From Nitrospira sp. (GTDB taxonomy: Bacteria > Nitrospirota > Nitrospiria > Nitrospirales > Nitrospiraceae): a DNA stretch of 64,000 nucleotides. The number at the start of each line of letters is the position of its first letter. Positions within the stretch are counted from its first letter, which is position 1. This document shows positions 16,163 to 35,907 of this stretch, one piece after another. A program made the position numbers and the translations under genes. The DNA lies in assembly GCA_009594995.1 (NCBI GenBank), contig VOPR01000033.1, forward strand, positions 1 to 64,000, written 5' to 3'. The notes beneath the pieces were generated by a model, which saw only the letters and a list, made by a program, of their open reading frames with translations, did no database searches and had not been told where the DNA came from.

Positions 16163-19100
16163 ATGACCGACCAACACACGCCTCGCATAGCCAATCGCCT
16201 CGCTCACGAAACCAGTCCCTATCTGTTACAGCATGCCTACAATCCCGTGGATTGGTATCCCTGGGGACCGGAGGCGTTGGCGCAGGCCACGAAACTGAAG
16301 CGTCCGATTCTCCTCTCGATCGGCTATTCCTCCTGCCACTGGTGTCATGTTATGGAGCGGGAATCGTTCGAGAACGACACGATCGCGGCGCTGATGAATC
16401 AACATTTCGTCTGCATCAAGGTCGACCGGGAAGAGCGGCCGGATCTCGACGAAATCTACATGCAGGCGACCTTGGCATTGAACCGCAATCAAGGCGGCTG
16501 GCCGATGACCGTGTTTCTCACGCCGGACCAGAAGCCGTTTTTTGCCGGCACCTATTTCCCTCCCACGGATCGCTACGGCCGCCCGGGCTTCCCGACTCTC
16601 CTGAAGAAGATCGCTGAGTATTGGGAGAAGGATCATGACGGGGTTGTGGCGCAAGCGGCCAACCTCACCGCGCGCCTCCAGGACGGCAGTCACGCCCCGT
16701 CGCCGACCACGGTCGGCGAGGCTGAACTAGACATGGCCGTGACCCAATTCGCCGAAGATTTTGATGCCAAACAAGGCGGATTCGGCGGCGCACCGAAATT
16801 CCCGCCTGCGACGGGGTTGTCGTTGCTACTTCACTGTTATCAGCGTACGAAAGATCCTCATACACTGACGATGGTGCGCACCACGTTGGATGGCATGGCG
16901 GCCGGTGGCATCTACGATCACATCGGCGGCGGCTTCGCGCGCTATTCCACCGACGAACGCTGGCTGGTGCCGCATTTTGAGAAGATGCTCTACGATAACT
17001 CGCTGTTGGCGCGTGTCTACGTCGAGGCCTATCAGGTGACAGGTGACGACAACTATCGCCGCGTGGCCTGCGAAACGCTGGACTATATCCTCAAGGAAAT
17101 GACCTCACCCGAAGGCGGGTTCTATTCCGCCACGGACGCCGATTCCGAGGGGGTCGAAGGGAAGTTCTTCGTGTGGACGCCGGAGGAAGTGCGCGCGGCG
17201 GTCGAGAGCGACGAGGATGCCCGGCGGTTCTGCGCCTATTACGATGTGACCCCGGCCGGCAACTGGGAACACAAGAATGTGCTGCACACGCCTCAAAGCG
17301 TCGAGGTGGTTGCCAAAGCACTCGGGATTACCGCCGACGAATTGCGGCAGACCATTACCAGACTCAAGCCGAAGCTCTACGCGGTGCGCGCGAAACGAAT
17401 TCCGCCCGGACTCGACGACAAGGTCATTACGGCTTGGAACGGAATGATGATCAGCGCCATGGCGGAAGCGGGGCGCGTGTTCACCATCCCGCGCTATTGC
17501 GCGGCAGCCGAACGGGCCTGTGATTTTCTGCTGACTACCCTCTCCAAGCCAGATGGCCGGCTTCTGCGAACCTACCGCGAAGGCAAGGCACATCTCGATG
17601 CCTATCTTGAGGACTACGCGTATTTTGCCGAAGGATTGATCGATACCTATGAGGCAGGCGGCAAGGAAACTTACCTGCTGGCAGCGGTTCGCCTCGCCGA
17701 GCGGATGCTGGCGGATTTTGCCGACAGCGAGCATGGAGGATTCTTCACGACCGGCACGGGTCATGAGGCGTTGATCATGCGCAGTCGGGAAGGCCCTGAC
17801 GGGGCCACGCCGAGCGGCAATGCGGTGGCCGCTTCTGTGCTCGGGCGGCTTTCCTATCATTTCGGGCGGGAGGATTTCCGACAGGCTGCGGCCGCGGCTG
17901 TTCGAGCCTATGGCCGTCAGATCGCCCGCTACCCGCGGGCGTTTGCGAAGAGTCTCATCGTCGTCGATCTCCTCACGAATGGTCCTATAGAGATCGCCTT
18001 GGTGGGGCTGCCGGGTGATTCGGGGACTGAGGCGTTGCGGGCCGCTGTGAATCGCACCTATCTCCCCAATCGTGTGCTGGCCTATCGTGAGGCGCACCAA
18101 GCCGAGACCGATCATCCGTTGTTGCAGGGCAAGACCTTGCTCGACGGCAAGCCGGCGTTGTACGTATGCCGGAATTTTACCTGCGGTCGGCCGATCACTG
18201 ATCCGGCGGATCTTCCTGCCCTGCTTGATCCCACGCTGAAAGCCACGGTCGCTCACGCGCCGGAACAGAAGGTATTGAGCGGAACCCGCTCTCCCGGCCA
18301 CGCAACCGTCCAGGGCACGGCAGCCTATGCTGCACGCAAGATTCACGACGCCACCGGTACAGGCTCGCTCGCGAACGGGTTTGTGCCTTTCGGCTCGACC
18401 GGTCTGACTGTGAGCCGGCTGGGTTTCGGAACCTATCGGGTCGGCATGCGCGAGGCTGAACATCGCGAGGCCTTCATGAAGGCGCTTCGCCTGGGCTGCA
18501 ATCTGATCGATACCTCGACCAACTACATGGATGGTGAAAGTGAGCAATTGGTTGGTTCGGTCCTGCAGGGATTGATGCGCGGGGGCGAGGTGACCCGCGA
18601 GGAAATCGTCGTGGTCTCAAAGATCGGGTACGTGCAGGGACAGAATCTGACGCAGGCCCAGGCGCGCGAAAAATCCGGCAAGCCCTATCCGGAGATGGTG
18701 AAATATGGCGACGACATTTGGCATTGCATCCATCCGGAGTTTCTCGCGGACCAACTGACGCTGTCGTTGGATCGGCTGGGATTGGCCACGCTTGATGTGT
18801 GCCTGCTCCACAATCCGGAGTACTTTCTTTCTCACGCCTTCAGGCTCGGCGGGAACGAGCCACGCGATCTCGCTGCGGTGCGCAATGAGTTCTATGCGCG
18901 CCTCCAACGTGCCTTTGAATATTGCGAAACGCAGGTGCAGGCAGGTCGGCTGCGTGGTTATGGTGTCTCGTCGAATACAGCCACGTCGATGCCGGACGAT
19001 TCCGGCGCCACCTCCCTCTCCCGGATGATCGATGCGGCGAAGATGGCGGCGACAAAGGTCGGAGCGAGGTCGCATCACTTTCAGGTCTTGCAGTGTCCCA

Positions 19101-19858
19101 TGAATCTCTACGAGTCCGGCGCAGTTTTGGTCCGGAACACCGGGGTCGACAACGGCAGGACGCTGTCGGAGGAAGCGATGCGCGAAGGCATCGCCTTGTT
19201 GGTCAATCGGCCGTTGAACGCGATGCCCTCGCTGAGAGGCGGCGTCGTGCGCCTGGCCGACGTGGCGGTGCAACCGCCGGAGGCCGAGTTCCAGGCGCAG
19301 CAGCAGAAGGTTGCGGCGTTGGAAGAGGAATATCGAAACAGCCTTGCGCCGGCCGTGGCACATAGCGGTCAGGGCATGCTCCCCGCCGACTTTTTTCGAT
19401 GGGCCGACGAACTGAATCGGATCCGGACCCAAGTGCAGGGCTTGGAGCATTGGGAACAGATCGAACAACAGATGATCGCGCCGCACGTGAATCAAGTGCT
19501 GCGGGCGCTGGCCGAAGCCTTTACGGGAACGGTGGCGGAGCAGTGGGAAGCCTGGCGCGACCGGTATGTGCCCGAACTGCTGGCGCTTCTGAGAACGCTT
19601 CATCGGGAAGCGTCGGAGAAAAGTCGTCTGCGTGCCGAGGAGCTCCATCGAACCATCAACCCGCTGCTGCCGGACCAAAGGCGCAACGCGACGTTGTCGC
19701 AGAAGGCACTGTGGGTTCTCGCCAGTACGCCCGGTGTGACGTCGGTGCTGAACGGGATGCGCTCGCCTGCCTATGTGGAAGACGCGTTACAGATCCTGCG
19801 CTGGGAGCCGTTACGTGATCCGCGACGGATCTACGACGCCTGTGCCGGAAAGAAGTAA
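16163..19858 (+). CDS. DUF255/YyaL-type thioredoxin-fold protein fused to an aldo/keto reductase
   Basis: A single uninterrupted frame of 1231 residues. Residues 1 to about 690 are a complete DUF255 (YyaL/SPATA20) protein: a thioredoxin-fold start with [20 protein letters not shown] and the CHWC pair at Cys58/Cys61, then an alpha/alpha-barrel resembling sugar epimerases ([20 protein letters not shown]). After a short linker, residues about 740-1225 form an aldo/keto reductase with a plausible catalytic tetrad: Asp783, Tyr788, Lys820 and His883. A helical insertion (about 1050-1170) interrupts the barrel before the closing [14 protein letters not shown] strand. Both parts normally occur as separate proteins. 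No ribosome site precedes the ATG clearly. The substrate is unknown. Confidence 0.88.
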
Positions 19859-21105: not shown

Positions 21106-21169
21106 TCAGGAGGTGGCAGGTGTTTGTGCGGCGTTCACACCTCCATTCCGTGGGGACGATGGCAGTATT

Positions 21170-21184
21170 TAACACACCCGTAAC
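21170..21184 (+). promoter_or_regulatory. Pho-box-like direct repeat upstream of the solitary pstS
   Basis: TAAC at 21170 and 21181, 11 bp apart, within TTTAACACACCCGTAACATA. The two 11-mers match at 8 of 11 positions. It lies about 85 bp upstream of the pstS start. Confidence 0.6.
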
Positions 21185-21268
21185 ATACCAGTGATGCACC
21201 AGCAATCATCGGTCCGTAGGATGGGCTGAGTAAGCAACGAGACCACTACTCTACCGGAGGAAATGAGC

Positions 21269-22387
21269 ATGTTGAGTCAGGGACAGAGGCAAGGATGGAG
21301 ACGGCGGACAGTCGTTGTGGGCCTGGCGGGGATGATAGCTTCCACCGGTTCCTTGGCCATGCTGCCGATGCAGATCGCGCAGGCCGAGAATGCAGGGCCG
21401 ACGGCGAGCCTGGCCATTGAGGAAGGGTTGGTACAATACAACCCGCAGGCTCAAGTGGCAGGGAGTCTCCGCGTTCAAGGTTCCGATACCATGTCTCTTC
21501 TCTTGAGTCGGCTTGCCGGAGAGTTTCAGCGGCGTCAGCCGAACGTGTCGATCAATGTGAGCGGCGGAGGATCGACAAAGGCGGTAAATGAGTTCATTCA
21601 ACCAGCCGCCAAATTGAGCGGGAAAATTACCCTCAAAGAAGAACGGCCGACCTATGTATCTCTGGTGGCCTCCTCACGTGAATTGCTTGATACGGAAGTC
21701 AAACAATTTGTCGCACAGCATGGATATGAACCGACCGCCATTCCCGTGGCGATCGATGCCGTGGCGCTCTACGTCCATCGTGATAACCCCATCCAGGGCC
21801 TGACGCTCGACCAAGTAGACGCCATGTTTTCAACCACCCACAACCGCGGATTGAAAATGAACCTGTCGCAGTGGGGTGCGCTGGGTCTTCAAGAAGGTTG
21901 GGAAAAAGCTCCTGTCAGACTGTATGGCCGCGATCGACGATCCGGAACGCGGGCGTTTTTCCAGGAACATTGTTTGGCCGGCGGTGAGTTCGCGCCGACG
22001 CTTCGCGAGGAGCCGGGCGCCGCTTCGGTGATCCTCGACCTGACGCGTGATCAATTGGGTATCGGGTACAGTGGACTCGGTCTGGAGACTTCGAATGTGC
22101 GCATCGTTCCGCTCGCTGAGAATCAGGGCATGCCGTTTGTCGCACCCACGGCGGCAACTGTCGCGGATCAAACCTACCCCCTTCGCCGGATGCTCTATCT
22201 CTACGTCGACAAGTCTCCGAATAGTCCCCTTGCACCCGCCGCACAAGAATTCCTGACGTTCGTGACGAGTCGTGAAGGGCAGGAAGCCGTGATGAAGGCT
22301 GGGTTTTTCCCTCTCCCAATGAACCAGGTGAAGAAAAACTTTCTGGCACTCGGCCTCACCGGTCAAAATGCTTCGCTCACAAACTGA
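21269..22387 (+). CDS. pstS: Phosphate-binding periplasmic protein PstS, solitary paralogue
   Basis: Periplasmic phosphate receptor for the Pst ABC importer. About 372 residues from ATG 21269, which has the right 8-bp spacing from GGAGG; the ATG at 21263 is only 2 bp away from it. There is a signal peptide with a leading twin-arginine-like RRR stretch (WRRRTVVVGLAGM), a possible Tat feature. The binding fold shows LRVQGSDTMSLLLSRLAGEF, SGGGSTKAV, VAIDAVALYVHRDNP and YGRDRRSGTRAFFQEHCL. It has no permease genes beside it, unlike the second pstS at 29460, so it may serve the same PstCAB or give a different affinity. Confidence 0.9.
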   Translation: MLSQGQRQGWRRRTVVVGLAGMIASTGSLAMLPMQIAQAENAGPTASLAIEEGLVQYNPQAQVAGSLRVQGSDTMSLLLSRLAGEFQRRQPNVSINVSGGGSTKAVNEFIQPAAKLSGKITLKEERPTYVSLVASSRELLDTEVKQFVAQHGYEPTAIPVAIDAVALYVHRDNPIQGLTLDQVDAMFSTTHNRGLKMNLSQWGALGLQEGWEKAPVRLYGRDRRSGTRAFFQEHCLAGGEFAPTLREEPGAASVILDLTRDQLGIGYSGLGLETSNVRIVPLAENQGMPFVAPTAATVADQTYPLRRMLYLYVDKSPNSPLAPAAQEFLTFVTSREGQEAVMKAGFFPLPMNQVKKNFLALGLTGQNASLTN

Positions 22388-23006: not shown

Positions 23007-23975
23007 CTATTGTGCGGGAGAGCGGCGGGGAGTTTTGTTTTTTGACCGTGTTGAGTCGAGATCCTGCTGGAGTTTCAACAATTGATCCTGTAACGCCTGC
23101 ATCTGCTTATGTTGATCATTCAGGCGATCCCGAAGCTCCAGATTTGAGCTGGTGAGCTCCCGGACCTGAAGGCGGAGCTCATCGGCCTGATTCGGTGAAT
23201 GGTCTACTGCCCCCTCACTCTTCATCCCGGCTGCCGCCGAAGTTGTCGCGGGAGGCGGTGTTGATGATACTGCTCCCGGCGGCGTAGCGGGCCGATTTCG
23301 CAGGGCGATGACCTCCTTCGCGTTGAGCGAGAGGTGTACTTTTTCAAAATGGGCCCAGCGTGGTTCTTCCGCGTCAGGCACCGTGGCCGCTGTCGCCGGC
23401 GCCGCGACCCACAATTTCATTCCTTTCGTGTCCCGTAAATCCTTGAGATCTCCACCGGCCGTATCAGTTCCGGTGAAGGCCGAGTGATCCGTGAGCACCA
23501 CATGAAGGTATCGGCCACGCAGAAACAGTGCGCCGGTCGTGCGCTCCTCGCTGTAAGTCGAGTGCGATTTGGGCAAGGAGAAGAATACGCGCTGGGTGGG
23601 GCCTGCTTGTTGAAAGGCCTGTGCAATCGGTGCTGCGATACGGTGTAGCTCGGTGTCGGTGAAGACAGGAACCGGTCGGGGCTGTTCCAGGATGCCGACG
23701 AGGGTTCCGCTCCAGCCGCTGACCATCAACGAGCCGAGGAGTACCCGAACGTCCTCCGTCGTCAGCTGCGCCGGATGATTATTGTCTACCGGAGCAGGGC
23801 CTCGATGGACGGTAGGATCCGACTGGATTCCAATCTGGCTGTCCTGTTGGTCATACAGCACTTTTCCGCTCGATACGAGGGAGCAGGCGGAGGTCAGGCA
23901 CATGATTGCGAGAAGGCACAGGGTGCGGCGCAATCCCGTCCGAGGGGATGATGTGTCGCTGGAAATTAATTGCAT
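23007..23975 (-). CDS. Lipoprotein with C-terminal coiled coil, unknown (last gene of porin operon)
   Basis: A 322-residue predicted lipoprotein. The signal sequence ends in the lipobox TSAC (Cys about residue 31). The middle domain (about 70-230) is globular, with the strand-rich stretch ALFLRGRYLHVVLTDHSAF. A Pro/Ala/Thr-rich linker follows, then a coiled coil (about 270-315: LRLQVRELTSSNLELRDRLN). The tail is basic. The ATG at 23975 overlaps the end of the preceding lipoprotein gene by 10 bp and follows GGGGGA, so the two are translationally coupled. No family is recognised; an envelope scaffold role beside the porin is inference. Confidence 0.75.
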   Translation of the reverse strand: MQLISSDTSSPRTGLRRTLCLLAIMCLTSACSLVSSGKVLYDQQDSQIGIQSDPTVHRGPAPVDNNHPAQLTTEDVRVLLGSLMVSGWSGTLVGILEQPRPVPVFTDTELHRIAAPIAQAFQQAGPTQRVFFSLPKSHSTYSEERTTGALFLRGRYLHVVLTDHSAFTGTDTAGGDLKDLRDTKGMKLWVAAPATAATVPDAEEPRWAHFEKVHLSLNAKEVIALRNRPATPPGAVSSTPPPATTSAAAGMKSEGAVDHSPNQADELRLQVRELTSSNLELRDRLNDQHKQMQALQDQLLKLQQDLDSTRSKNKTPRRSPAQ

Positions 23976-24328
23976 GTGAACTGAATCCCCCACAGTCTGT
24001 TGCCTCCCATTTGCCCACGCCAGGCTCGATCTGCGGCGGGGCTCACCTTCGGTATTTCGCCTTCTTTCTGAACGTGTGATCCAGTGGGGCATTTACGGTT
24101 GATCAGATCCATGGCGTCGCGCCGCTGGTCTGATGTGAGGATATCGACTTCATTTTGAAACGGATACGTGACGAGTCCCCCCGTCGGGGTCTCGCGAACC
24201 AGCGTCACATCTCCTCCGCACGCGGTGCAGATCGACATCAGCAAGAGGGCGGCGGCGGCGTGAAACAGGCCGCTCCGCCCTCTTGCTGGCCAGGTCGCTG
24301 TAAAGGTTGTCAGCGGGATTCGGCGCAA
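23966..24328 (-). CDS. Small lipoprotein, unknown
   Basis: About 120 residues starting at TTG 24328, behind a strong GGAGGAG site inside the end of the slp-like gene. The frame overlaps that gene by 19 bp and the next by 10 bp. The signal contains LLLMSICTAC, a lipobox with Cys near residue 37. The mature part has two further cysteines (RKCPTG and QFTCN) that may pair. The TTG start with a perfect ribosome site is unusual but well supported; a later start is not. No family recognised. Confidence 0.7.
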   Translation of the reverse strand: MRRIPLTTFTATWPARGRSGLFHAAAALLLMSICTACGGDVTLVRETPTGGLVTYPFQNEVDILTSDQRRDAMDLINRKCPTGSHVQKEGEIPKVSPAADRAWRGQMGGNRLWGIQFTCN

Positions 24329-24849
24329 TAGGTCTCCTCCTCGAGTGGCTGATATCCTGCCCCAAAGTTCGGGAAATCAGCAATCTCTTTTCCCCCGGTA
24401 TTCCAAATGTGAAGACACTGGGCCGTGAGTGCCGGGAGACTCCGTTGACTGTCTTCGATGGCGACGACCGCGGAATTTTGCGTGGTGCCGATGGCGATGA
24501 CTCGATTTCCGGGCTGCAAATGGTTCGTGGGGACTTTGCCGTTGAAATAGACCAGGAATTCTCCCCTTCCCCGTTCCTTGTCGGTCGGACCATAAGCCGG
24601 GTGCTCAACGATCGGCAACTGCGTCAGGACCATGCTGACCAAGCCGTCCTTTTGTGGCGCCTGAAGGATACGGCCACCAAGCTGCACCTTCTTCCCCGCT
24701 TTGGCATTGGGGACCATGCGCCAGGCCGTAAAATCGAAATTCTGATCCACCCCGTCCAGTACTTGGGGTGAGAAGATTCGTTGTGGTCCGCATCCACTGA
24801 GCATGATGCTGATCAGTACGCCCGCGATCGCTCCTCTGTATCTCTTCAT
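24310..24849 (-). CDS. Slp-family outer-membrane lipoprotein
   Basis: A 179-residue lipoprotein. The signal MKRYRGAIAGVLISIMLSGC has a clear lipobox. The mature domain resembles the starvation-inducible Slp family: VQLGGRILQAPQKDGLVSMV, then RGRGEFLVYFNGKV and HLQPGNRVIAIGTT, an OB-like beta barrel. In E. coli Slp is induced by starvation and acid; here the gene follows a porin with a Pho-like promoter, which suggests phosphate starvation control. It starts 66 bp after the porin stop, on the same strand. Confidence 0.8.
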   Translation of the reverse strand: MKRYRGAIAGVLISIMLSGCGPQRIFSPQVLDGVDQNFDFTAWRMVPNAKAGKKVQLGGRILQAPQKDGLVSMVLTQLPIVEHPAYGPTDKERGRGEFLVYFNGKVPTNHLQPGNRVIAIGTTQNSAVVAIEDSQRSLPALTAQCLHIWNTGGKEIADFPNFGAGYQPLEEETYCAESR

Positions 24850-24915
24850 GGGATGCCTTTCTCTTCTCTCTAGCCCGGTTTGCTTAGACATTCATTGGCA
24901 CGCGCGTTCGCATCG

Positions 24916-26463
24916 CTACATGAATCGTATTTGCCACTGTACCAAGAAGGCATTCTGGGCGAAAGGGTCACCGACGCCGCGCGTCGGATCGACGACGTTG
25001 TTGGCCCCATTGCCGGAATGGTGGCGGAATTCATAGTTGACCTGCAGCTTCGATTGGACCTTCGGCGGAAAGTTTTCGAAGTAGTAACTCAGGCCGACGA
25101 TGGTTCTGGTGTAAAGGTCATTGCCGATTCTGGTGTTCGGGTCGAATTGTTCGTACATGACGACCGGCTCAAAGTTTTCGAGCGGGCCGTCGGTAATCAG
25201 GTACTTGGCCAGCACGTACCAGGTACGTCGTTGCACGCCCGGGGCGCCTGAGCCACCGCAGATAGCCTGCACATCACAGGCACCGTTGGCCGGCCGTCCA
25301 ACCGTGGTTTGGTTTGCGCCATCATGCCCCTGCCAGATTTCTCCCTGCACCATGAAGCCGGGCAGAATCTTCGACGTGTAGCGAAAGTCCAACCCGTAGC
25401 GATCGAAGGCGCCTTTGCCACGGCCATTGATATTGGTATTGGCGTTGTTCGACTCGCCTTGAATCGTGGTGAAACTGATAAATGACACGTCGCTCCCGAA
25501 GAGACGCACCCGTGAGTAGAAGCTCTTGGGCGCGTTCGATCCGGTCGCGTTCGCATGGTAATTGTTGTTGTTCATAATACCGGCCACGTACTCCAGCCGG
25601 TTGAACAGTTTGCCACGCATATCGAGGAAATAATCACGTTCTTGGAGAAACTCGACTGTACCGGCGGAACCGGTACGATTGCCCACTCCGGAGCCGACGG
25701 AGGTGAGGTACGGAGAACTGATGACATCGCGTAACCCACCGGACGTTTCCGTGAAGATACCGAACGGCATTCGAAAGATACCCATGCGGAAATAATTCAC
25801 GTTGGGCGCCCATGATTGCACCGGCCGCACGTCCAGGTAGGCTTCCCGAAAGAACGTCGAGGAGGTTGGTACTCCGCCTGTGGCCGCACTGCCGCCGGTC
25901 GGTGTGTTATTCAACAGATTGATGCTTTGAAACTCCATCAACGTGTGCCATCGCGGGAGTGTATCGCTAATGCGGCCCCAGAAGAGGATTTCCGACCGCC
26001 GGATGGACAGGTTGTCCTGGCTTCGTCCTTCCGCCACATGCGCATCCTGGTGGGTGTACAACCATTGCAGCGCATTCAGTCCGAAATTCACCTTGTCCCT
26101 GAGGATCGGCAGCAACTCAGCTTTTGACTTCCATTCGTCCAGGGTGTCGACTCGCTTGTCTCGCTCCCCGCCTTTGTATTCCTGCTCGGCACGAATCTGA
26201 ATCCACTCCTCTTTGGTAATCGTCCCCTTCTGCATTAAGAGGTCTTCGATCGACGTGCCGCCTAGAGGAACGTCCGGAGCTGCAGACGAAGGGCCGGCGC
26301 CGCTCGGAGCCGGGCCCATAGCCTGGGCGACGACGGTATGGGACGGCGGGGCCATCGGGCCTTGCCGCGATGAGTCATCGGCCCAGGACGCAGTCACGCA
26401 GAGACTGAGCACTGCGGTGCAGAACAGGCCGCTGATGGGTGCAACCAACGGGCGTCTTTTCAT
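24916..26463 (-). CDS. Porin, OprO/OprP-like (phosphate-selective type)
   Basis: Outer-membrane beta-barrel of 515 residues from ATG 26463, which follows AAGGAGG. A signal peptide (to about residue 29) is followed by an N-terminal helix region with the LLMQKGTITKEEWIQIRAE block seen in Porin_O_P proteins. The rest alternates aromatic-rich strands (FREAYLDVRP, NYFRMGIFRMPFGIF, RYTSKILPGFMVQGEIW). The chain ends in VQWQIRFM. Phosphate preference is inferred from family and from the Pho-like box 84-98 bp upstream. It leads an operon with three lipoproteins. Confidence 0.85.
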   Translation of the reverse strand: MKRRPLVAPISGLFCTAVLSLCVTASWADDSSRQGPMAPPSHTVVAQAMGPAPSGAGPSSAAPDVPLGGTSIEDLLMQKGTITKEEWIQIRAEQEYKGGERDKRVDTLDEWKSKAELLPILRDKVNFGLNALQWLYTHQDAHVAEGRSQDNLSIRRSEILFWGRISDTLPRWHTLMEFQSINLLNNTPTGGSAATGGVPTSSTFFREAYLDVRPVQSWAPNVNYFRMGIFRMPFGIFTETSGGLRDVISSPYLTSVGSGVGNRTGSAGTVEFLQERDYFLDMRGKLFNRLEYVAGIMNNNNYHANATGSNAPKSFYSRVRLFGSDVSFISFTTIQGESNNANTNINGRGKGAFDRYGLDFRYTSKILPGFMVQGEIWQGHDGANQTTVGRPANGACDVQAICGGSGAPGVQRRTWYVLAKYLITDGPLENFEPVVMYEQFDPNTRIGNDLYTRTIVGLSYYFENFPPKVQSKLQVNYEFRHHSGNGANNVVDPTRGVGDPFAQNAFLVQWQIRFM

Positions 26464-26546
26464 TACGAACTTCCTCCTTGTGTCTGTTGATCTCGTGAAC
26501 GCGGGCGGATCGTAGTCGAGATGCATCACACCGACGTTCGAACTCT

Positions 26547-26561
26547 GTTACCGATGTGTAA
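26547..26561 (-). promoter_or_regulatory. Pho-box-like direct repeat upstream of the porin operon
   Basis: On the minus strand TTAC (26561-26558) and TAAC (26550-26547) are 11 bp apart in TTTTACACATCGGTAACAGA, with a weaker GAAC in phase a further 11 bp on. Confidence 0.55.
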
Positions 26562-26639
26562 AACCCTGTCGTTGCTTTCGTGACATCGCCGATGTGTGTC
26601 TGATGTGTGTCTCTGGAATCAGGTCCATCATGCGGCCGC

Positions 26640-27350
26640 TCAGGTGGCGGACAATTTGTATCCGACGCCTCTGATCGTGAGAATCCATTGCGGGGCCGAC
26701 GGTTTGTATTCCAGTTTCTGACGGAGCGCATGGATATGGACATCCAGCGCATGTTCTTCGAGGGCGTAGTCTTCTCCCCATACAAGATTGAGCAGTTCCT
26801 GGCGCGTCAGCACGCGCCCGGGGTTTTGCAGGAGGACCCGAAGAATCTGGAATTCCTTCGGGGTCAGCTGGATCGGCTTTTCCTCGACTCTCACCTCGTG
26901 GCGATCGAGATTCATGGAGAGTGCGTTCACTCGAAATTCCCTGGCTGGCGCGGCTTGAAACTCTTGTCTCCGAAGCAGCGCCTTGATGATGGCCAGCCAT
27001 TCTCGGTGACGGTACGAATCGATCACCATATCAAATCCAGCCGCAAGATCCTCCAACGTGTCCTCTTCGGTGCAAGGTTCTCCCTGTGGATGAAGCGCGA
27101 TCATGGGAATGTGCCGTAGTGCCTGGTCGTGCCGCAGAACAGCAATGACCTTGTGTCGCCGGTCGATCAGCGCCAATTTAAACGCAGCTCGAGGAGCAAG
27201 AAACAAGGCGGCCTCGGCCGTCGGTGCGAGTGAGACGTGATAGCCGTTCGGCCGCAACAGATGTTGAACGACCTCGGCAAATGCTTCGTCCTTGGTGAGA
27301 AGAAGCACCGCGATTCCCTGATGACGAGCCGGTTCCATCGCCTGCTGCAT
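26640..27350 (-). CDS. PhoB/OmpR-type response regulator with degenerate receiver
   Basis: About 236 residues. The C-terminal winged helix (about 140-232) is intact: LTPKEFQILRVLLQNPGRVL, then VDVH-type recognition helix HALDVHIHALRQKLEYKP and ILTIRGVGYKL. The receiver half is abnormal. Asp63 sits at the phosphorylation position, but the usual Thr/Ser is replaced (MIALH) and the conserved Lys is Asp111 (VIDSYRHREW). It may therefore work without phosphorylation or bind another signal. It is divergent from psiE, with a Pho-like box in each direction. The start is uncertain: ATG 27350 chosen over a TTG at 27371; neither has a clear ribosome site. Confidence 0.82.
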   Translation of the reverse strand: MQQAMEPARHQGIAVLLLTKDEAFAEVVQHLLRPNGYHVSLAPTAEAALFLAPRAAFKLALIDRRHKVIAVLRHDQALRHIPMIALHPQGEPCTEEDTLEDLAAGFDMVIDSYRHREWLAIIKALLRRQEFQAAPAREFRVNALSMNLDRHEVRVEEKPIQLTPKEFQILRVLLQNPGRVLTRQELLNLVWGEDYALEEHALDVHIHALRQKLEYKPSAPQWILTIRGVGYKLSAT

Positions 27351-27394
27351 GGTCTGATGGTACCGGTGCAAGATTGCACGCCTGTATCCCGATT

Positions 27395-27409
27395 GTTACG
27401 GCTGTGTAA
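27395..27409 (-). promoter_or_regulatory. Pho-box-like direct repeat upstream of the degenerate regulator
   Basis: On the minus strand TTAC (27409-27406) and TAAC (27398-27395) are 11 bp apart in TTTACACAGCCGTAACAATC, 45-60 bp upstream of the start codon. Confidence 0.55.
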
Positions 27410-27465
27410 ATACCACAGGTGCATGCCAATAAGCCGTCGAACCCGTCGATCAACCCGGCAAAACG

Positions 27466-28555: not shown

Positions 28556-29248
28556 TCAACGGCGTGAGCGCAGTCGATACCGGTATCCCGGTAACACGTC
28601 GATGGACCCCGCACCACTGTTCTCAATCTTTCGATGAAGCCTGCGAACGTCGCGATCCAACTCTTGGAGCGTCTCGCCAGGTCTCTCCCCTGCTTGAAGG
28701 TCTGTCAATTCTTCCGCACCCAGCAAGGCGTTTTCGTGGCGGAGCAGAACGCTGAGCAGCGTCAGTTCCCTTCGTGACAGGGAGAGTTCTCCTTTCCCAA
28801 GCGAGACGGCGAAGTAGGGCCCCTGCACTCTGACGGCGGCATTCGAGTCCGGACGTAACTCCGGCACGGACTCTCTGATTCGTCGAAGGACCGCCCGTAC
28901 CCGCAACACCACCTCCCGCGGACTAAACGGTTTCACCACGTAGTCGTCTGCACCCATCTCCAGGCCGGCGATCCGCTCGGCTTCGCCGCCGATCGCCGTG
29001 AGCATGATGATCGGGATGTGCTGGGTTGACGTGGTCTGTCGCACCATCCGGCAGATGTCCTGTCCGCTGAGTCCGGGCAGCATCAGGTCGAGCAGGATCA
29101 GTGACGGCGGACGGCGTTGAATCTCCTGCCATCCGGCCTGGCCGTCGGTGGCCACCGACGTGTCAAAGTGTGCGAGACGCAAAGCTCGATCGACGAGTGA
29201 GGCGTGAAGCGGTTCGTCTTCGATGATCTGCACGGTCGGGTTGTTCAT
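28556..29248 (-). CDS. OmpR/PhoB-type response regulator
   Basis: A 230-residue regulator with a canonical receiver: acidic pocket at Glu10/Asp11/Glu12, phospho-acceptor Asp54 (LLDLMLPGLSG), Thr84 (IMLTA) and Lys106 (VVKPF). The C-terminal domain (about 135-228) starts as a normal winged helix (GKGELSLSRRELTLLSVLLR) but the recognition helix region is divergent (LQELDRDVRRLHRKIENSGA) and ends DVLPGYRYRL. No kinase gene is adjacent. It is divergent from the pst operon, across a 211-bp region with a Pho-like box, which makes it the best candidate in the window for the PhoB role. Confidence 0.88.
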   Translation of the reverse strand: MNNPTVQIIEDEPLHASLVDRALRLAHFDTSVATDGQAGWQEIQRRPPSLILLDLMLPGLSGQDICRMVRQTTSTQHIPIIMLTAIGGEAERIAGLEMGADDYVVKPFSPREVVLRVRAVLRRIRESVPELRPDSNAAVRVQGPYFAVSLGKGELSLSRRELTLLSVLLRHENALLGAEELTDLQAGERPGETLQELDRDVRRLHRKIENSGAGSIDVLPGYRYRLRSRR

Positions 29249-29360
29249 GGCATTCCAGGATACGAGGCGGCGGTTTCAGGTCCCTCAATGCTCCTTCTTG
29301 GTTGTGTTAACTCCATCCTGAGCTGATGAAACCGCCGGAGATGGGGCGGCAACGGAAAGT

Positions 29361-29375
29361 TAACATGGTGTTTAC
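29361..29375 (+). promoter_or_regulatory. Pho-box-like direct repeat upstream of the pst operon
   Basis: TAAC (29361) and TTAC (29372) are 11 bp apart in GTTAACATGGTGTTTACACT, flanked by weaker in-phase CAAC and TGAA. About 85 bp upstream of the pstS start. Confidence 0.6.
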
Positions 29376-29459
29376 ACTGGGCTGAAGGCCGTGAAATGCC
29401 ACCCCCCTATGCTCAGCGTTGTCATATTCACCGCCCGTCTAACCGGAGGAATCTTTTCT

Positions 29460-30470
29460 ATGATCGTTTCACGCCAGATGTGCCTGGGGCTCACGCTGAC
29501 CGCGCTTGGTCCATTTCTGATGACGTGCCTCGTGAGTGCCGGGGCCGTCGATGCGCCTCCCGTCGAAACGATCGTTATCGATGCGGAGATTAAACCGTAC
29601 GCGAAGGTCAGTGGCGTCTCCGGCACGATCAATAGCATCGGTTCTGACACGCTTAATAATCTGATTACGCTCTGGGCAGAAGGTTTTCGCAAACAATATC
29701 CGAATGTGAAAATTCAAGTAGAGGGCAAAGGTTCGAGCACGGCGCCGCCCGCGTTGATCGAAAATACGGCTCAGCTGGGCCCCATGTCGCGAACGATGAA
29801 GTCGAGCGAGATCGACGCGTTCGAAGCCAAATTCGGCTATCCGCCCACCGCCTATCCGGTGGCCGTCGATGCGCTGGCCCTGTTCGTCAATAAAGATAAT
29901 CCGATCAAAGGGCTCACCGTTGCAGAAGTGGATGCGCTCTTCTCGAAGTCCCGCCGGCAGGGCTACACGACCGACCTCACCCGGTGGGGACAGATCGGTC
30001 ACACCGGAGATTGGGGCTCTGCGCCAATCAGTCTATATGGTCGAAACTCTGCGTCCGGAACCTACGGCTTTTTCAAAGAGCACGCGTTGAAAAATGGTGA
30101 CTTCAAAGATCAGGTGAAGGAACAGCCCGGTTCCGCTTCCGTCGTGCAAGGGATTAGCGAGGACCGGTACGGCATCGGGTATAGCGGCATCGGGTACAGC
30201 ACATCCGGCGTCAGGATGGTGCCGCTCGCGGCGAAAGCTGGTCAACCGTTCATCGAACCGACTCACGCGAATACGAAAAACGGCTCGTATCCGCTCTGGC
30301 GCTATCTCTACATTTACGTGAATCAAGCTCCGGGAAAACCCCTCTCCCCCATCGTCAAAGAGTTTCTTGCGTATGTGTACAGCCGAGAGGGGCAGTCCGA
30401 CGTGCTCAGAGATGGGTACTTCCCTGTCGAGGGAGCGCTGGCTGAGAAACAACTCGCCAAGATCCGCTAA
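29460..30470 (+). CDS. pstS: Phosphate-binding periplasmic protein PstS, operon copy
   Basis: A 336-residue phosphate receptor. Signal peptide MIVSRQMCLGLTLTALGPFL, then the PstS fold: INSIGSDTLNNLITLWAEGF, VEGKGSSTAPPALIENTAQL, VAVDALALFVNKDNPIKGLT and LYGRNSASGTYGFFKEHALK, which supply the usual phosphate-binding Ser/Thr/Asp/Arg residues. GGAGG is about 11 bp before the ATG. The stop overlaps pstC by one base (TAATG), so the two are coupled. It is clearly related to the solitary pstS at 21269, but the two differ strongly at the N-terminus. Confidence 0.95.
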   Translation: MIVSRQMCLGLTLTALGPFLMTCLVSAGAVDAPPVETIVIDAEIKPYAKVSGVSGTINSIGSDTLNNLITLWAEGFRKQYPNVKIQVEGKGSSTAPPALIENTAQLGPMSRTMKSSEIDAFEAKFGYPPTAYPVAVDALALFVNKDNPIKGLTVAEVDALFSKSRRQGYTTDLTRWGQIGHTGDWGSAPISLYGRNSASGTYGFFKEHALKNGDFKDQVKEQPGSASVVQGISEDRYGIGYSGIGYSTSGVRMVPLAAKAGQPFIEPTHANTKNGSYPLWRYLYIYVNQAPGKPLSPIVKEFLAYVYSREGQSDVLRDGYFPVEGALAEKQLAKIR

Positions 30471-32698
30471 TGATCAACGATCGGTTCCGATTCATCTTGA
30501 AGCCACTGCATCGACGATCGTTGATCGACCGATTCGCGGGTGCCGTGATTATGGTGGGGGGCCTGGCGACCATTGTCAGCATTCTCGGGATTTTCTTTTT
30601 TCTCTTTCGGGAGGTGACTCCCCTGTTCACGGCGCCGAGTGTCAAGCTCACGCAACGCTTGAGCGTGCCCGCATCCCTGACGGACGACGGTCCGGCCCAG
30701 GTTGCAGTGGATGAACATCGTGAGATCGCGCAGGTGTTCTCCTCCGGTGCGGTCCAGTTCTTTGACCTGGCATCAGGCCGGCTGATTCCCGTCGAGACGC
30801 CGCCACAACTGAATGGACACCTGATCACAGCGATGGCCTCGGGTGGCGGGAACGTGCCGCGCTTCGCGGTGGGCACAGCTGACGGGGAAGTCCTGCTCGT
30901 GAAGGTCGGCACCACGACTGAATTTTCCGAACAGGGTGAACGTATCAAACGACCCCATATCAAGGCCGGCCAACCCATTCCGCTGACGAAAAGTCCTATT
31001 GTCCGTCTGGCCTATCGTTCGAGTGATCACGGCAGCCTGCTGGCTCTCGTTTCCAAGGGAGGCCGATTACTTGTGGCGCGGCTTGCTACGGATGACCCTA
31101 CAGGAAACAGCCCGACGATTGTGGATTTGCCTCAACCGGCCGGCGTCGTGACGGCGCTGGCGCTGGATGCGGGGCTTGAAAACCTGTATGTGGGGACCTC
31201 GGACGGACAGGTCGTGCATATCGGCCTCTCTGACACGGCATCGCCTGAGGTGAGGGCGACCTATGTGGTGGCCGCACCTTCGGTGGCGGTGGCTTCGTTG
31301 GGGTTTCTGAGTGGTGATCGCAGCCTTGTCATTATGGCGGCGGATGGCGCGGTTTCGACTTGGGGGCTCGTACGACGCGCCGATGCGCCCTCCGGCTGGA
31401 AGCTCACTCAGATGCACACTCTCCGCTCTCACACTGCGTCGGTTACCGCGTTTGCTCCGTCTCAGCGGGTGAAGAGTTTCGTGACCGGCGATGCGAAAGG
31501 AAACCTGTTCCTTCACCATGCGACGTCATCCCAAACGTTCCTGCGTGTAAGCAACGGCGAGTTTCCGATTCGTGCCGTCGCGTTTGCGCCTAAAGGAGAC
31601 GGGTTGATCGCATTGGATAGCGCGGGGCAATTGTTTCTCTACCAGGTGCAGAATCCTTATCCTGAAGTCACATTTGACACGCTGTTCGGCAAAGTCTGGT
31701 ACGAAGGGTATGACCAGCCGGCGTATGTGTGGCAATCCTCCTCCGGATCGGATGACGTGGAGCCGAAACTCGGTTTGCTTCCGCTTGCATTCGGAACCCT
31801 CAAGGGAACCATGTACGCTCTGTTCCTGGCTGTGCCGATCGCGATCCTGGCCGCGATGTGCACCTCGCAGTTCATGCATCAGGATCTGCGCGCTAAAATT
31901 AAACCGATTATTGAAGTCATGGCGGCGCTGCCGACCGTGGTGCTCGGCTTTCTGGCCGGCCTCTGGCTGGCTCCCCTCCTCGAGCGCATGCTCCCGGCCA
32001 TTGCCGGCATGGCATTGGTGCTGCCGCTGCTCGTCGTGATCGCGTCGCTCGGCTGGTATCTCTGCCCGTTGGCCTTCAAGCGACACGTCGCGCATGGGAA
32101 TGAAGCACTGATGTTAATGCCAATCCTGGCCATTGGAATCGGCGGCTGCCTGTGGGCCAACTCCTCCCTGGAACAGTGGTGGTTCGACGGCAACGTCAAG
32201 GCCTGGCTCTCAAGCCACCTGGGAATCCAATACGATCAGCGCAATGCTCTGGTGGTCGGCATCGTGATGGGGTTTGCCATTGTGCCGGTGATTTACAGTA
32301 TTGCCGAAGAAGCGCTCTCCAACGTGCCGAAGACGCAGATCGCCGGATCTCTCGCATTAGGCGCCACACGATGGCAAACGGTGTGGCATCTGGTGCTGCT
32401 GTCCGCTAGTCCCGGGATCTTTTCCGCCGTCATGATCGGGTTCGGGCGGGCGATCGGCGAAACTATGATAGTGCTGATGGCGACCGGGAATACGCCCATT
32501 CTGGATTGGAATTGGGCGAACGGTTTCCGGACCCTGTCGGCCAATATTGCGGTGGAGATTCCTGAAGCCCCGCACGGCGGAAGCCTGTATCGCGTGTTAT
32601 TCCTGGCGGCGTTACTCCTGTTCATTGTCACGTTCGTCATTAACTCGTTGGCCGAGTTGGTTCGCCAACGCCTCCGGGATAAATACAGCCATGGATAA
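30470..32698 (+). CDS. pstC: Phosphate ABC permease PstC with large beta-propeller-like periplasmic insert
   Basis: Inner-membrane permease of 742 residues; classical PstC has about 320. One membrane segment (about 25-48) is followed by a periplasmic region of nearly 400 residues (about 55-435). This contains repeated short beta motifs such as ALALDAGLENLYVGTSDGQV, SVTAFAPSQRVKSFVTGDAK and IRAVAFAPKGDGLIALDSAG, which look like WD40/propeller blades. The permease core follows (about 440-735). It has the cytoplasmic coupling loop EEALSNVPKTQIAGSLALGA and the block GFGRAIGETMIVLMATGN. Long PstC proteins are known from pseudomonads, so this is a variant rather than a new protein. It overlaps pstA by 8 bp. 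Confidence 0.93.
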   Translation: MINDRFRFILKPLHRRSLIDRFAGAVIMVGGLATIVSILGIFFFLFREVTPLFTAPSVKLTQRLSVPASLTDDGPAQVAVDEHREIAQVFSSGAVQFFDLASGRLIPVETPPQLNGHLITAMASGGGNVPRFAVGTADGEVLLVKVGTTTEFSEQGERIKRPHIKAGQPIPLTKSPIVRLAYRSSDHGSLLALVSKGGRLLVARLATDDPTGNSPTIVDLPQPAGVVTALALDAGLENLYVGTSDGQVVHIGLSDTASPEVRATYVVAAPSVAVASLGFLSGDRSLVIMAADGAVSTWGLVRRADAPSGWKLTQMHTLRSHTASVTAFAPSQRVKSFVTGDAKGNLFLHHATSSQTFLRVSNGEFPIRAVAFAPKGDGLIALDSAGQLFLYQVQNPYPEVTFDTLFGKVWYEGYDQPAYVWQSSSGSDDVEPKLGLLPLAFGTLKGTMYALFLAVPIAILAAMCTSQFMHQDLRAKIKPIIEVMAALPTVVLGFLAGLWLAPLLERMLPAIAGMALVLPLLVVIASLGWYLCPLAFKRHVAHGNEALMLMPILAIGIGGCLWANSSLEQWWFDGNVKAWLSSHLGIQYDQRNALVVGIVMGFAIVPVIYSIAEEALSNVPKTQIAGSLALGATRWQTVWHLVLLSASPGIFSAVMIGFGRAIGETMIVLMATGNTPILDWNWANGFRTLSANIAVEIPEAPHGGSLYRVLFLAALLLFIVTFVINSLAELVRQRLRDKYSHG

Positions 32699-34334
32699 GC
32701 AGTCGAAGGTCATGAAGGATTTCTGGCGGGGCGGAGAACTCTTCGTCTGGATGACGGCATCCGGTGTGGCGATCAGTTTGCTGATGGTGGCCGGGATGTT
32801 GATCCTGATCATGGCCAACGGACTGGGGCAGTTCTGGCCCGGCCCCCTCCACCAGGTGCTCCTGAAAACGCAGGAGACCGTGATTGGCCAGAAAGTGGGC
32901 GAAGAGGAAATCCCCCATTCTGTGAGTCCCGAGACGCAGTCCGGACTTCGCCGTTTTCGCTACCGGGTCGGCAATCGGGATGTGTTCGGCTCCGAGTATC
33001 GTTGGATCAATGAGGCCGACATTCTCTCGGTCACGCGCCCCGAAAGCCTAGCGTCCGTGGAGCGGCGCGAATGGGGACCGGCCTATGGTCGCATCAGCAT
33101 TGAGGGTGGCACGACAGATATCAGTCCTGAACATTCTTGGGCGACGGTCGTGACATTGGTGGATCGAGCGAATCAGTTGCGGCGGCGGATCGAACATGTG
33201 GAACGTGAAGAGATCGGAGCCATCAACTATCAGATCGAAAAAGTCAGGCTTGCGCGTCAGGCCTTGACGTTGAAAAGTGCGAAGGGCTCCGGCGAAGCGG
33301 AGGAAGATCAGCGCCTCCTCACTCAGATTGCAGGGCTTGAACGTGACTATGTGGCCAAGACCGACATACTCGAACAGTTGCACAAAGAAGCCGGGCAGGA
33401 AGTGTTGTTTCTCACGCTTTCCACCGGGCGAAAGGTACGATTGTCTTTCGATCAGGTGATGGCAGTGAGCCGGCCGAACGCGATGACCTGGTTCGAAAAG
33501 TCCCTGGCCTACGTGCATAATCTCTGGCTATTCGTTTCCGGCGAGCCCCGCGAAGCCAATACCGAGGGCGGCATTTTTCCGGCGATCTTCGGCACCGTGC
33601 TGATGGTCTTTTTGATGACCTTGGCGGTGATGCCCTTCGGGGTGATGGCGGCCGTGTACTTACGGGAGTACGCCAAGCAAGGCCTGCTGGTCCGAATGGT
33701 TCGGATTGCGGTGAACAACCTGGCGGGGGTGCCGTCCATCGTGTTCGGCGTGTTCGGATTGGCGTTTTTTGTCTATACCCTGGGCGGTACGATTGATCAG
33801 ATCCTGTTTCCTGAAGCACTGCCGAATCCGACCTTCGGCACAGGCGGCATTTTGTGGGCCTCGCTGACCCTGGCGCTGCTCACGGTTCCAGTCGTCATCG
33901 TCGCCACCGAGGAAGGTTTGTCTGCGGTGCCGCGTGATTTCAGGGAAGGGTCCGTCGGCCTGGGGGCCACCAAGTTTGAAACGATTCGGCATGTGATTCT
34001 GCCCTGCGCGTTGCCGGGAATATTGACGGGATTGATTCTCGCCATGGCTCGGGCTGCCGGAGAAGTGGCTCCCTTGATGCTCACGGGGGTCGTAAAGTTG
34101 GCCCCGGCTCTTCCGCTGGACGAATACCTCCCCTTCCTGCATCTCGATCGAAAGTTCATGCATTTAGGATTTCACATTTATGACGTCGGGTTTCAGTCGC
34201 CGAATGTCGAAGCAGCAAAACCCATGGTGTACATGACCACCTTGATTCTGATCCTTGTGGTGGTCCTGTTGAATCTCGCGGCGGTGATGTTGCGCAATCG
34301 TCTACGGAAACGGTTTGCGACGTCGGCGGTGTGA
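32691..34334 (+). CDS. pstA: Phosphate ABC permease PstA with extended periplasmic coiled-coil region
   Basis: Inner-membrane permease of 547 residues, about twice the classical length. After the first membrane segment (about 18-45) comes a periplasmic region of about 240 residues. It includes a coiled coil (ANQLRRRIEHVEREEIGAIN and LLTQIAGLERDYVAKTDILE) and recalls the DUF3333-type N-terminal extension of pseudomonad PstA. The permease core (about 285-540) has the coupling loop EEGLSAVPRDFREGSVGLGA and ILAMARAAGEVAPLMLTG. It starts inside the end of pstC. The enlarged PstC and PstA probably form a joint periplasmic structure around PstS. Confidence 0.93.
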   Translation: MDKQSKVMKDFWRGGELFVWMTASGVAISLLMVAGMLILIMANGLGQFWPGPLHQVLLKTQETVIGQKVGEEEIPHSVSPETQSGLRRFRYRVGNRDVFGSEYRWINEADILSVTRPESLASVERREWGPAYGRISIEGGTTDISPEHSWATVVTLVDRANQLRRRIEHVEREEIGAINYQIEKVRLARQALTLKSAKGSGEAEEDQRLLTQIAGLERDYVAKTDILEQLHKEAGQEVLFLTLSTGRKVRLSFDQVMAVSRPNAMTWFEKSLAYVHNLWLFVSGEPREANTEGGIFPAIFGTVLMVFLMTLAVMPFGVMAAVYLREYAKQGLLVRMVRIAVNNLAGVPSIVFGVFGLAFFVYTLGGTIDQILFPEALPNPTFGTGGILWASLTLALLTVPVVIVATEEGLSAVPRDFREGSVGLGATKFETIRHVILPCALPGILTGLILAMARAAGEVAPLMLTGVVKLAPALPLDEYLPFLHLDRKFMHLGFHIYDVGFQSPNVEAAKPMVYMTTLILILVVVLLNLAAVMLRNRLRKRFATSAV

Positions 34335-34352
34335 TCATAGAGAGGAGCTCTC

Positions 34353-35216
34353 ATGGAAGTTCAATCCGGCAGGATCGCAGCAACGACACCGATCGTCACG
34401 GTTCGTCCGACCGTCCAGCCGTCCCGCCTCGCTCGTACTCAATCAGCGTTGGCGTCTTCGGTGAATGCCAAAATATCGGTTCGTGATCTCGACTTTTACT
34501 ACGGACATCGGCAGGCCCTGTTTCATGTGGGCCTGACGATTCGCACCAATTCAGTCACTTCCTTCATTGGTCCGTCCGGGTGCGGCAAATCCACGTTACT
34601 CCGCTGCCTGAATCGCATGAACGATCTGGTGGAAGGCGCTCGCGCCGTGGGACGGGTTGAGTTGGACGGTGTCGATGTCTATGACGTGGCCATCGATGTG
34701 ACCGATCTCCGCAAACGCGTGGGGATGGTGTTTCAGAAGTCGAATCCATTTCCTAAGTCGATTTACGACAATGTGGCCTATGGACCACGCTTGCATGGCA
34801 CCAAAGACAAACATTCGTTGGACGAACTTGTTCAACACAGCTTGCAGGGCGCAGGGCTCTGGGATGAGGTGAAAGACCGGCTCACACAGAGCGCGTTGGG
34901 ACTGTCCGGCGGCCAGCAGCAGCGGCTGTGCATCGCGCGCGCATTGGCGGTGCAGCCGGACGTTATCCTAATGGACGAGCCCTGCTCCGCGCTGGACCCC
35001 ATTGCAACCGGGAAGATCGAAGAGCTGATCTATACCTTGAAGGATACGTATACGGTGGTCATTGTGACGCACAATATGCAGCAGGCCGCGCGCGTGTCTG
35101 AGCAATGCGGATTTTTCCTGATGGGCGAGTTGGTCGAATTCGGCGATACGAAAACCATTTTTACAACACCTCGAGACAAGCGCACGGAAGATTACATCAC
35201 CGGGCGATTTGGATAA
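34353..35216 (+). CDS. pstB: Phosphate ABC transporter ATPase PstB
   Basis: Cytoplasmic ATPase of the Pst importer, 287 residues including a 35-residue extension before the usual start of homology. Walker A is GPSGCGKST (about 73-81), followed by [17 protein letters not shown]. The Q-loop is [20 protein letters not shown], the signature LSGGQQQR, Walker [14 protein letters not shown], and the switch His [18 protein letters not shown]. All match PstB closely. GAGGAG precedes the ATG. Gaps are 18 bp from pstA and 22 bp to phoU. Confidence 0.97.
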
Positions 35217-35238
35217 ACCGCGGGAGGAAACGGACATC

Positions 35239-35907
35239 ATGCAACGTCACTTTGATCAAGATCTCGCGCATCTGAAACAGCAGCTGCTTCGCATGGGCGG
35301 CCTGGTCGAGTCGCAAATTCAGCAGGCTCTGCAGGCCCTCGTCGATCGGGACTCCGACGTGGCCGTGGACGTCATCAAGCAAGATCACGACGTCAATGCA
35401 TTGGATGTCGAGATTGACGAACTCTGCGTTCAACTATTGGCGTTACAACAGCCGACCGCCCGCGACCTGCGATTCGTGACGACGGCAATGAAGATTTCCT
35501 CCGAACTCGAACGCATGGGTGATCTGGCCGACAACATCGCTCAACGAGCGTTGGAGTTGAACGGCGAGCCCCAACTGAAACCGTACATCGACATTCCGCG
35601 TATGGCTAATTGGACCATGCGGATGGTGAAGGAATGCCTGGATGCCTTCGTGAATTCTGATCCGGGGCTGGCGAGGAAGGTCTGCGCGGACGACGATTTC
35701 GTGGATGAGGTGAACGAACAGTTGTTTCGGGAACTCCTCTCCTTTATGCTGGAGGACACCCGCACCATCACTCGCGCGATTCGCCTCACGTTTGTGGCAA
35801 AGTCGCTCGAACGAATCGCCGATCACGCGACCAATATCGCCGAACTGGTGGTCTATATGGTCGAAGGTAAAAACATCCGGCACGTTGCTCCGTCCGCGAG
35901 TTACTAG
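35239..35907 (+). CDS. phoU: Phosphate signalling and transport regulator PhoU
   Basis: Cytoplasmic all-helical regulator of 222 residues that couples the state of the Pst transporter to PhoR/PhoB signalling and restrains uptake. Two three-helix PhoU repeats are visible, with metal-binding type motifs ELERMGDLADNIAQRALEL (first) and SLERIADHATNIAELVVYM (second). The ATG at 35239 follows GGAGG. The stop is directly followed by the ppx start with no gap. No PhoR-type kinase is encoded nearby. Confidence 0.96.
   Translation: MQRHFDQDLAHLKQQLLRMGGLVESQIQQALQALVDRDSDVAVDVIKQDHDVNALDVEIDELCVQLLALQQPTARDLRFVTTAMKISSELERMGDLADNIAQRALELNGEPQLKPYIDIPRMANWTMRMVKECLDAFVNSDPGLARKVCADDDFVDEVNEQLFRELLSFMLEDTRTITRAIRLTFVAKSLERIADHATNIAELVVYMVEGKNIRHVAPSASY

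Follow-up and report, generated by a model that had tools for sequence, protein, structure and literature searches.

How phosphate enters Nitrospira through the outer membrane, and whether a pore does this alone or together with lipoproteins encoded beside it, is the question raised by four adjacent minus-strand genes of a Nitrospira sp. (VOPR01000033.1). The 64,000 nt analyzed here, referred to as the window, come from contig C7 of a genome of 3.78 Mb. The four genes encode, in this order, a porin, an outer-membrane lipoprotein of the Slp family, a small lipoprotein (LpC), and a coiled-coil lipoprotein (LpD). Sequence comparison indicates that they are a conserved unit sharing a Pho-type box with neighboring PstS genes, and the set is probably switched on by phosphate shortage. 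We read it as a putative phosphate-starvation-induced outer-membrane uptake module of the Nitrospirales and assign this interpretation a probability of about 0.6.

Gene order and its conservation

The porin gene (24916-26463) has an ATG start and codes for 515 amino acids. It is followed, after a gap of 66 bp, by the genes for Slp (24310-24849, 179 amino acids), LpC (23966-24328, 120 amino acids from a TTG start, 84 in the mature form), and LpD (23007-23975). The longest LpD frame reaches position 24092, corresponding to 361 amino acids; from the likely internal ATG the protein comprises 322 residues, 292 of them in the mature form. Recomputed coordinates agree exactly with an earlier note on this DNA, which had described a porin and three lipoproteins whose genes overlap by 19 bp (Slp/LpC) and 10 bp (LpC/LpD). 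A lipobox was found in Slp, LpC, and LpD as well as in all orthologues that could be scored by the lipobox pattern.

We scanned 100 related genomes for orthologues of LpD, defined by an expectation value (E) below 1e-65, and found them in 28 genomes besides the window's own. The full porin-Slp-LpC-LpD order on one strand was present in 21 of these 28 genomes, confirming that the order is conserved in other relatives, and in two more (G028 and G057) the cluster runs into contig ends. Full-order clusters span eight genera, or ten if split sets are counted, and the order is kept across genera at LpD identities of 43-54%. The 15 porin orthologues compared share 58-96% identity. The earlier note had named lipoproteins lying mostly away from the porin as an outcome that would speak against a module. 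For the orthologues this does not occur, because LpD is found with a porin or at a contig end in all 28 genomes. The gene for PstS1, an extra PstS-family binding protein, adjoins LpD in tail-to-tail orientation in 19 of the 21 full clusters. The exceptions are G033, where PstS1 precedes the porin gene and shares its strand, and G046, where no PstS1 was found beside LpD.

All cluster-bearing relatives examined belong to one family, and the clusters are therefore not independent of each other. Among the 38 cluster relatives from the genome scan, 37 are labelled Nitrospira or Nitrospirae and one Nitrosospira; the chromosome of Candidatus Nitrospira defluvii carries an LpD orthologue and the cluster (L195). 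Of the 28 genomes from the genus of the window, 12 contain neither a window-type porin nor an LpD orthologue. The one of these 12 that was inspected (G022) contains a PsiE-like gene (by eye), two PstS-type genes, a relative of LpD, and another porin of the Porin_O_P type.

The Pho-type box

The box is a direct repeat of the form TTAACA-N5-TTAACA with a period of 11 bp. Seven sites within two mismatches of this form occur at five places in the 64 kb, where 1.08 are expected, and none of 100 shuffled sequences reached seven. One of them, TTTACACATCGGTAACA (26546-26562, minus strand), lies 82 bp before the ATG of the porin gene and is kept in the six closest relatives. Thus, the Pho-like repeat that the earlier note had placed before the whole unit is borne out, and it is of the same type as the repeats before the PstS genes. 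The repeat scan located further boxes before PstS1 (TTAACACACCCGTAACA, 21169-21185, plus strand), before a receiver-less regulator gene (27394-27410, minus strand), and between the divergent genes for a PhoB-like regulator and PstS2 (29358-29376, both strands). The fifth place (56284-56302) precedes a gene for a fusion of zinc-dehydrogenase and Gfo/Idh/MocA parts (54101-56251) that has no evident tie to phosphate.

A box score of at least 10 out of 12 was obtained before 22 of 32 porin copies, which are related by descent and hence not independent counts, and in 20 of the 21 scored full clusters, the window included. The exception among the full clusters is G033, in which the porin is preceded by PstS1, itself equipped with a box. 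A score of 10 was reached in only 1 of 1,500 random 260-bp windows taken from loci without pst genes, and the porins of molybdate loci scored 7 to 9. A box-bearing, presumably Pho-controlled outer-membrane module is well supported at the sequence level because the gene order is conserved, a PstS-type gene adjoins LpD, and the box is shared with the pst genes.

Two other candidate repeats were discarded. The best match to an E. coli-type Pho box (CTGTCAT repeats) upstream of the porin gene scored 12 out of 18, a value reached 46 times in the window. A perfect 11-bp repeat, GACACACATCA, at approximately 26590-26613 was dropped in favor of the TTAACA-type box because it is not conserved in relatives.

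The half-site of the box resembles the TTAACA-type box of Bacillus PhoP. Pho regulons with direct repeats of 11-bp period, as in Bacillus and M. tuberculosis, share with the Nitrospira boxes the period, a similar half-site, and the position before pst genes; the boxes described here, however, are predicted from sequence, and the CTGTCAT form of E. coli is absent. The PhoP sites of M. tuberculosis are reported to consist of 7-bp repeats with a 4-bp spacer (PMC4832192).

Identity of the porin and of Slp

The porin matches PF07396 (Porin_O_P) with 27.1 bits at a curated cut-off of 20.9 (E 3.2e-6), and the match is local, covering residues 126-251 only. Porins of the OprP type form trimers with an arginine ladder and a phosphate-selective pore. 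The designation as phosphate-selective, as proposed in the earlier note, finds backing in the Pfam match above cut-off; the local alignment, however, makes it a weak label that does not support strong homology to OprP. The Slp assignment, in contrast, held: the protein carries a lipobox and matches PF03843 with 47.1 bits (cut-off 22.5, E 2e-12). Its 27.8 bits against NCBIfam TIGR00752 (slp) are below the cut-off of 88.45, and judged by these profiles it is a distant member of the Slp lipoprotein family.

Two undescribed lipoprotein families

LpC and LpD had been called unrecognized lipoproteins, and this description stands. Apart from coiled-coil or scattered weak hits, neither family matched any Pfam or NCBIfam entry above cut-off; the window's LpC had no match in either collection, and the window's LpD none above a curated cut-off. 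LpD consists of a domain of about 195 residues, a linker, a 52-residue helix, and a basic tail. Its structure model has a predicted local distance difference test (pLDDT) score of 77.7 and shows an alpha/beta domain (residues ~8-196) that is well predicted except for a poor loop spanning 138-146, followed by the loose linker and the helix. Searches of solved structures by sequence returned coiled-coil matches only, Foldseek with the model found nothing at E <= 0.001, and VIA-align of the domain against the PDB gave nothing above Z 3.1.

Alignment A1 comprises 39 LpD sequences, some of them first picked for a nearby porin or LpC; L146 was left out owing to a broken frame, and L127, L128, L140, and L143 were missed by the lipobox pattern. 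Cys1, Pro38, and Gly118 are invariant in all 39 rows, and His37, which forms an HP motif with Pro38, is present in at least 90%. A charged stretch (D133, H134, D141, D149, R151, and K154) is invariant in the 24 rows from phosphate clusters and mostly absent from the 15 others. As aligned, 23 of the 24 phosphate-cluster rows contain the helix, one row ending early, and 12 of the 15 sampled non-phosphate relatives have no coiled coil. Four of the 39 members match TolA_bind_tri, a trimerizing coiled coil (best E 1.4e-6). The coiled coil that the earlier note had seen in LpD was thus predicted again, as the 52-residue helix; its suggested role as a rod spanning the periplasm is ruled out by length, because 52 residues extend over only about 78 angstroms, and the element is missing from most of the sampled non-phosphate relatives.

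Phylogenetic analysis of the LpD domain separated the subfamilies according to locus type: sequences from phosphate clusters grouped together (support 82/82), as did those from molybdate loci (96/84). The root of this tree and several of its long branches are uncertain. An LpD-family match was present in 25 of 118 genomes sampled across the phylum, and all 25 belong to the window's order. The non-matching genomes listed for this sample (20, with 73 more not listed) all come from other families.

The conserved-looking cysteine pair of the small lipoprotein also proved real. Besides the lipidated Cys1, Cys44 and Cys83 are kept in all 35 LpC members of alignment A2, which contains 35 of 36 sequences (L137 was left out because the wrong Cys had been chosen). 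This invariance suggests that the two residues form a disulfide. The LpC model has a pLDDT of 78.5; no solved-structure relative was found by sequence, and Foldseek of the model gave no match at E <= 0.001. The best VIA-align match was PDB 7bgl chain 1 (Z 6.1, root-mean-square deviation 3.1 over 69 residues), with a Z value below the level of kinship. This chain is presumably YecR, a small lipoprotein of the flagellar LP ring. The likeness to YecR stems from the fold comparison of the model, whereas a sequence relation is lacking: hhalign of LpC against E. coli YecR gave a probability of 0.1, and no YecR family was among the Pfam matches of the 35 LpC members. Kinship of LpC with YecR is therefore not supported, and we regard the fold likeness as a lead only. 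More generally, the VIA-align matches of the LpD and LpC models are leads at most, and the lack of convincing PDB relatives does not prove new folds.

Relatives of LpD and LpC beside other porins

Relatives of LpD retrieved with the window's protein alone were often located near other porins. To test this pattern, we determined the co-location of LpD-family genes with porins in 16 genomes chosen for few contigs, using a distance limit of 3 kb. The set comprised 117 LpD-family genes (fragments joined), 52 porins (Porin_O_P matches plus the window type), and PstS- or ModA-type proteins; the ten weakest solute-binding protein matches were left out. An LpD gene was found within 3 kb of 42 of the 52 porin genes, compared to a mean of 0.77 and a maximum of 4 in 300 runs of random placement. 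For the Pfam-matched porins alone the count was 32 of 39. Of the porin-linked LpD genes, 37 of 43 had a PstS- or ModA-type protein within the same distance. Since the genomes were hand-chosen and some A1 sequences had been picked near a porin or LpC, the share of LpD genes near a porin carries some bias, and the share of porins near an LpD gene is less affected. Among 39 LpC genes from 15 genomes, 10 are located beside a window-type porin and 14 have a ModA-type gene at a distance of at most 1 kb.

Several loci (L164, L165, L169, L170, and L172) carry molybdate/sulfate genes with ModA-type proteins, porins, and relatives of both LpD and LpC. In L164, two ModA, ModB, Sbp, and CysT score above NCBIfam cut-offs and are accompanied by a Porin_O_P porin. 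L164 and L169 also encode porin-like proteins that were recognized by eye only, one of which, in L164, is close to an LpD gene. Such loci possibly equip the outer membrane with an entry reserved for molybdate. In G009, the gene for arsenite oxidase (TIGR02693, E 3e-303) is immediately followed by that for an LpD relative (L166:6231-7271, plus strand). Upstream of this relative a further barrel-like protein is encoded, and downstream lie arsenic-type resistance genes. Based on these neighborhoods, we propose that LpD and LpC generally accompany oxyanion porins and that the window holds the phosphate edition.

Neighboring phosphate genes and regulators

The module is surrounded by genes for PstS1, the receiver-less regulator, PsiE, the PhoB-like regulator, PstS2, two permeases, an ABC ATPase, PhoU, and Ppx/GppA. 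PstS1 (21263-22387, plus strand) matches PF12849 (E 6.9e-31) and, below the curated cut-off, TIGR02136 (E 9e-51). PstS2 and the Pst transporter genes through PhoU occupy 29391-35907 on the plus strand, with matches to PF12849, TIGR02136 (above cut-off), BPD_transp_1 (twice), ABC_tran, and PhoU. The PstC-like permease in this group (30470-32698, plus strand, 742 amino acids) carries an unusual extra domain, its N-terminal part having weak beta-propeller (WD40-type) matches.

Directly upstream of the porin lies the gene for an OmpR/PhoB-type regulator (26640-27371, minus strand) that matches PF00486 (E 9e-30) and gave no Response_reg match; by eye, the acidic pair, Thr, and Lys typical of a receiver are missing. 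This regulator, which has its own box, may control the porin cluster independently of phosphorylation. The PhoB-like response regulator (28556-29248, minus strand) has both a receiver (PF00072, E 1e-24) and a DNA-binding domain (PF00486, E 8e-7). Farther away, at 16163-19858 on the plus strand, a protein of 1231 amino acids combines a Thioredox_DsbH/YyaL-type part with an aldo-keto reductase; its gene is also located near the cluster in several relatives.

A possible path for phosphate, and its alternatives

When phosphate is low, a PhoB-like regulator would activate the four-gene unit. Phosphate would cross the outer membrane through the porin, which is probably trimeric, as related porins are. 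The lipoproteins LpD (the core companion), LpC, and Slp would surround the porin mouth on the periplasmic side of that membrane and help to retain or guide the anion, which PstS1 or PstS2 would then pass to the Pst permease. The coiled coil may trimerize LpD (compare the four matches to TolA_bind_tri, the trimerizing region of the TolA-binding protein), which would fit a porin that is itself a trimer; this is a guess. At molybdate loci, and perhaps sulfate and arsenic loci, the LpD and LpC families would do the same job with their own porin and binding protein. The weakest step of this scheme is, in our judgment, the one from gene neighborhood to physical contact. Taken further, the Nitrospirales would possess one interchangeable device, consisting of a specific porin, an LpD adaptor (often with LpC), and a docking binding protein, through which oxyanions are relayed and do not diffuse freely; we offer this extension tentatively and consider it rather doubtful.

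Several observations weigh against a phosphate uptake module. A Porin_O_P match was found in only 4 of 18 aligned porins, a set that includes two of another porin type with strong matches. No PDB relative of the porin was detected by sequence (phmmer and profile search, E 1), a weak test because a control porin matching PF07396 had none either. In five of the 28 genomes (G001, G007, G010, G042, and G056) the cluster is split or duplicated, with LpC-LpD after one porin copy and Slp mostly with another, and most porin copies of the split clusters lack the Pho-type box. No recognized porin lies within 3 kb of 74 of the 117 LpD-family genes, and 15 of 39 LpC genes are near neither a porin nor ModA; because of these two counts, part of both families either serves another purpose or meets porins that the profiles missed. 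The fixed four-gene assembly of the earlier note thus recurs in most relatives with an LpD orthologue but is not universal. Of its suggested starvation-induced entry complex, the part that stands is a recurring assembly beside pst genes behind a Pho-type box shared with the PstS genes; a physical complex, and polyphosphate or organophosphate as its substrate, are hypothetical. With regard to the split sets (loci L133, L134, L127, L145, and L152), one porin is accompanied by Slp and PstS1 and another by LpC-LpD; the porins of L145 and L152 have no N-terminal helical segment.

The same genes could serve envelope housekeeping under phosphate shortage. The porin would then transport, while the co-induced lipoproteins anchor or stabilize the outer membrane, for example on peptidoglycan through the coiled coil and basic tail of LpD, and leave the anion untouched. 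The C-terminal helix with its basic tail and the four TolA_bind_tri matches agree with such a role, as do LpD paralogues that lie apart from any porin, one of which, in the window's own genome, immediately follows what by eye look like ATP synthase genes. Slp is, moreover, a starvation lipoprotein in E. coli. However, the 12 non-phosphate LpD rows without a coiled coil include most of those beside porins or ModA, meaning that it is the globular domain that goes with porins, and general envelope proteins would not be expected to track porin and oxyanion-binding loci of differing substrates. We consider this explanation unlikely. Less probable still is that a different phosphorus compound (organophosphate, polyphosphate, phosphonate, or phosphite) passes through the porin, with PstS1 as its binder and LpD or LpC processing or binding it. 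The differing TIGR02136 scores of PstS1 and PstS2 would fit, as would the invariant charged stretch specific to phosphate-cluster LpDs and the nearby genes for Ppx/GppA and for CHAD, a domain tied to polyphosphate; yet the module itself contains no recognized phosphatase, phosphonate, or polyphosphate enzyme. That the lipoproteins have no joint function and were merely retained in one clade because they are closely linked and vertically inherited would suit the restriction of the examined clusters to one family. This seems very improbable given the co-location test, the persistence of the order at the LpD identities found across genera, and the recombination of the families with other porins elsewhere.

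Relation to known systems and implications

The proposed phosphate uptake module consists of parts of known kinds, namely a Pho-controlled porin, Pst genes, and Slp; what seems new is the four-gene unit and the two undescribed lipoprotein families reused at other oxyanion loci. Like OprP and OprO of Pseudomonas (PF07396), the porin lies beside phosphate uptake genes, with which it is apparently co-regulated, but its resemblance is confined to a weak, local profile match with no PDB relative by sequence. To our knowledge, OprP is not made with three lipoproteins. The module Slp shares the Pfam family of Slp/YeaY, yet it is locked in a porin cluster under a Pho-type box and falls below the NCBIfam slp cut-off. 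A precedent for an outer-membrane lipoprotein acting on the periplasmic side of a porin is MlaA, which binds the OmpC/OmpF trimer; that system, however, transports lipids and involves unrelated families, whereas here three lipoproteins and an anion-binding protein are encoded. No paper about this cluster was found by title or abstract start in the open-access literature searched, which is not proof of absence.

As far as we know, substrate-specific outer-membrane uptake of small anions has been described for few porins (OprP and OprO) and is usually deemed passive and partner-free. If our reading is true, a porin inherited with three lipoproteins and a binding protein would be a first sign of a dedicated relay of anions from pore to binding protein. 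It would bear on how nitrite-oxidizing and comammox Nitrospira obtain phosphorus and also molybdenum, which their nitrite oxidoreductase requires. The LpD and LpC relatives beside molybdate and other oxyanion pores and binding proteins hint at one common route by which these bacteria may take up different scarce anions.

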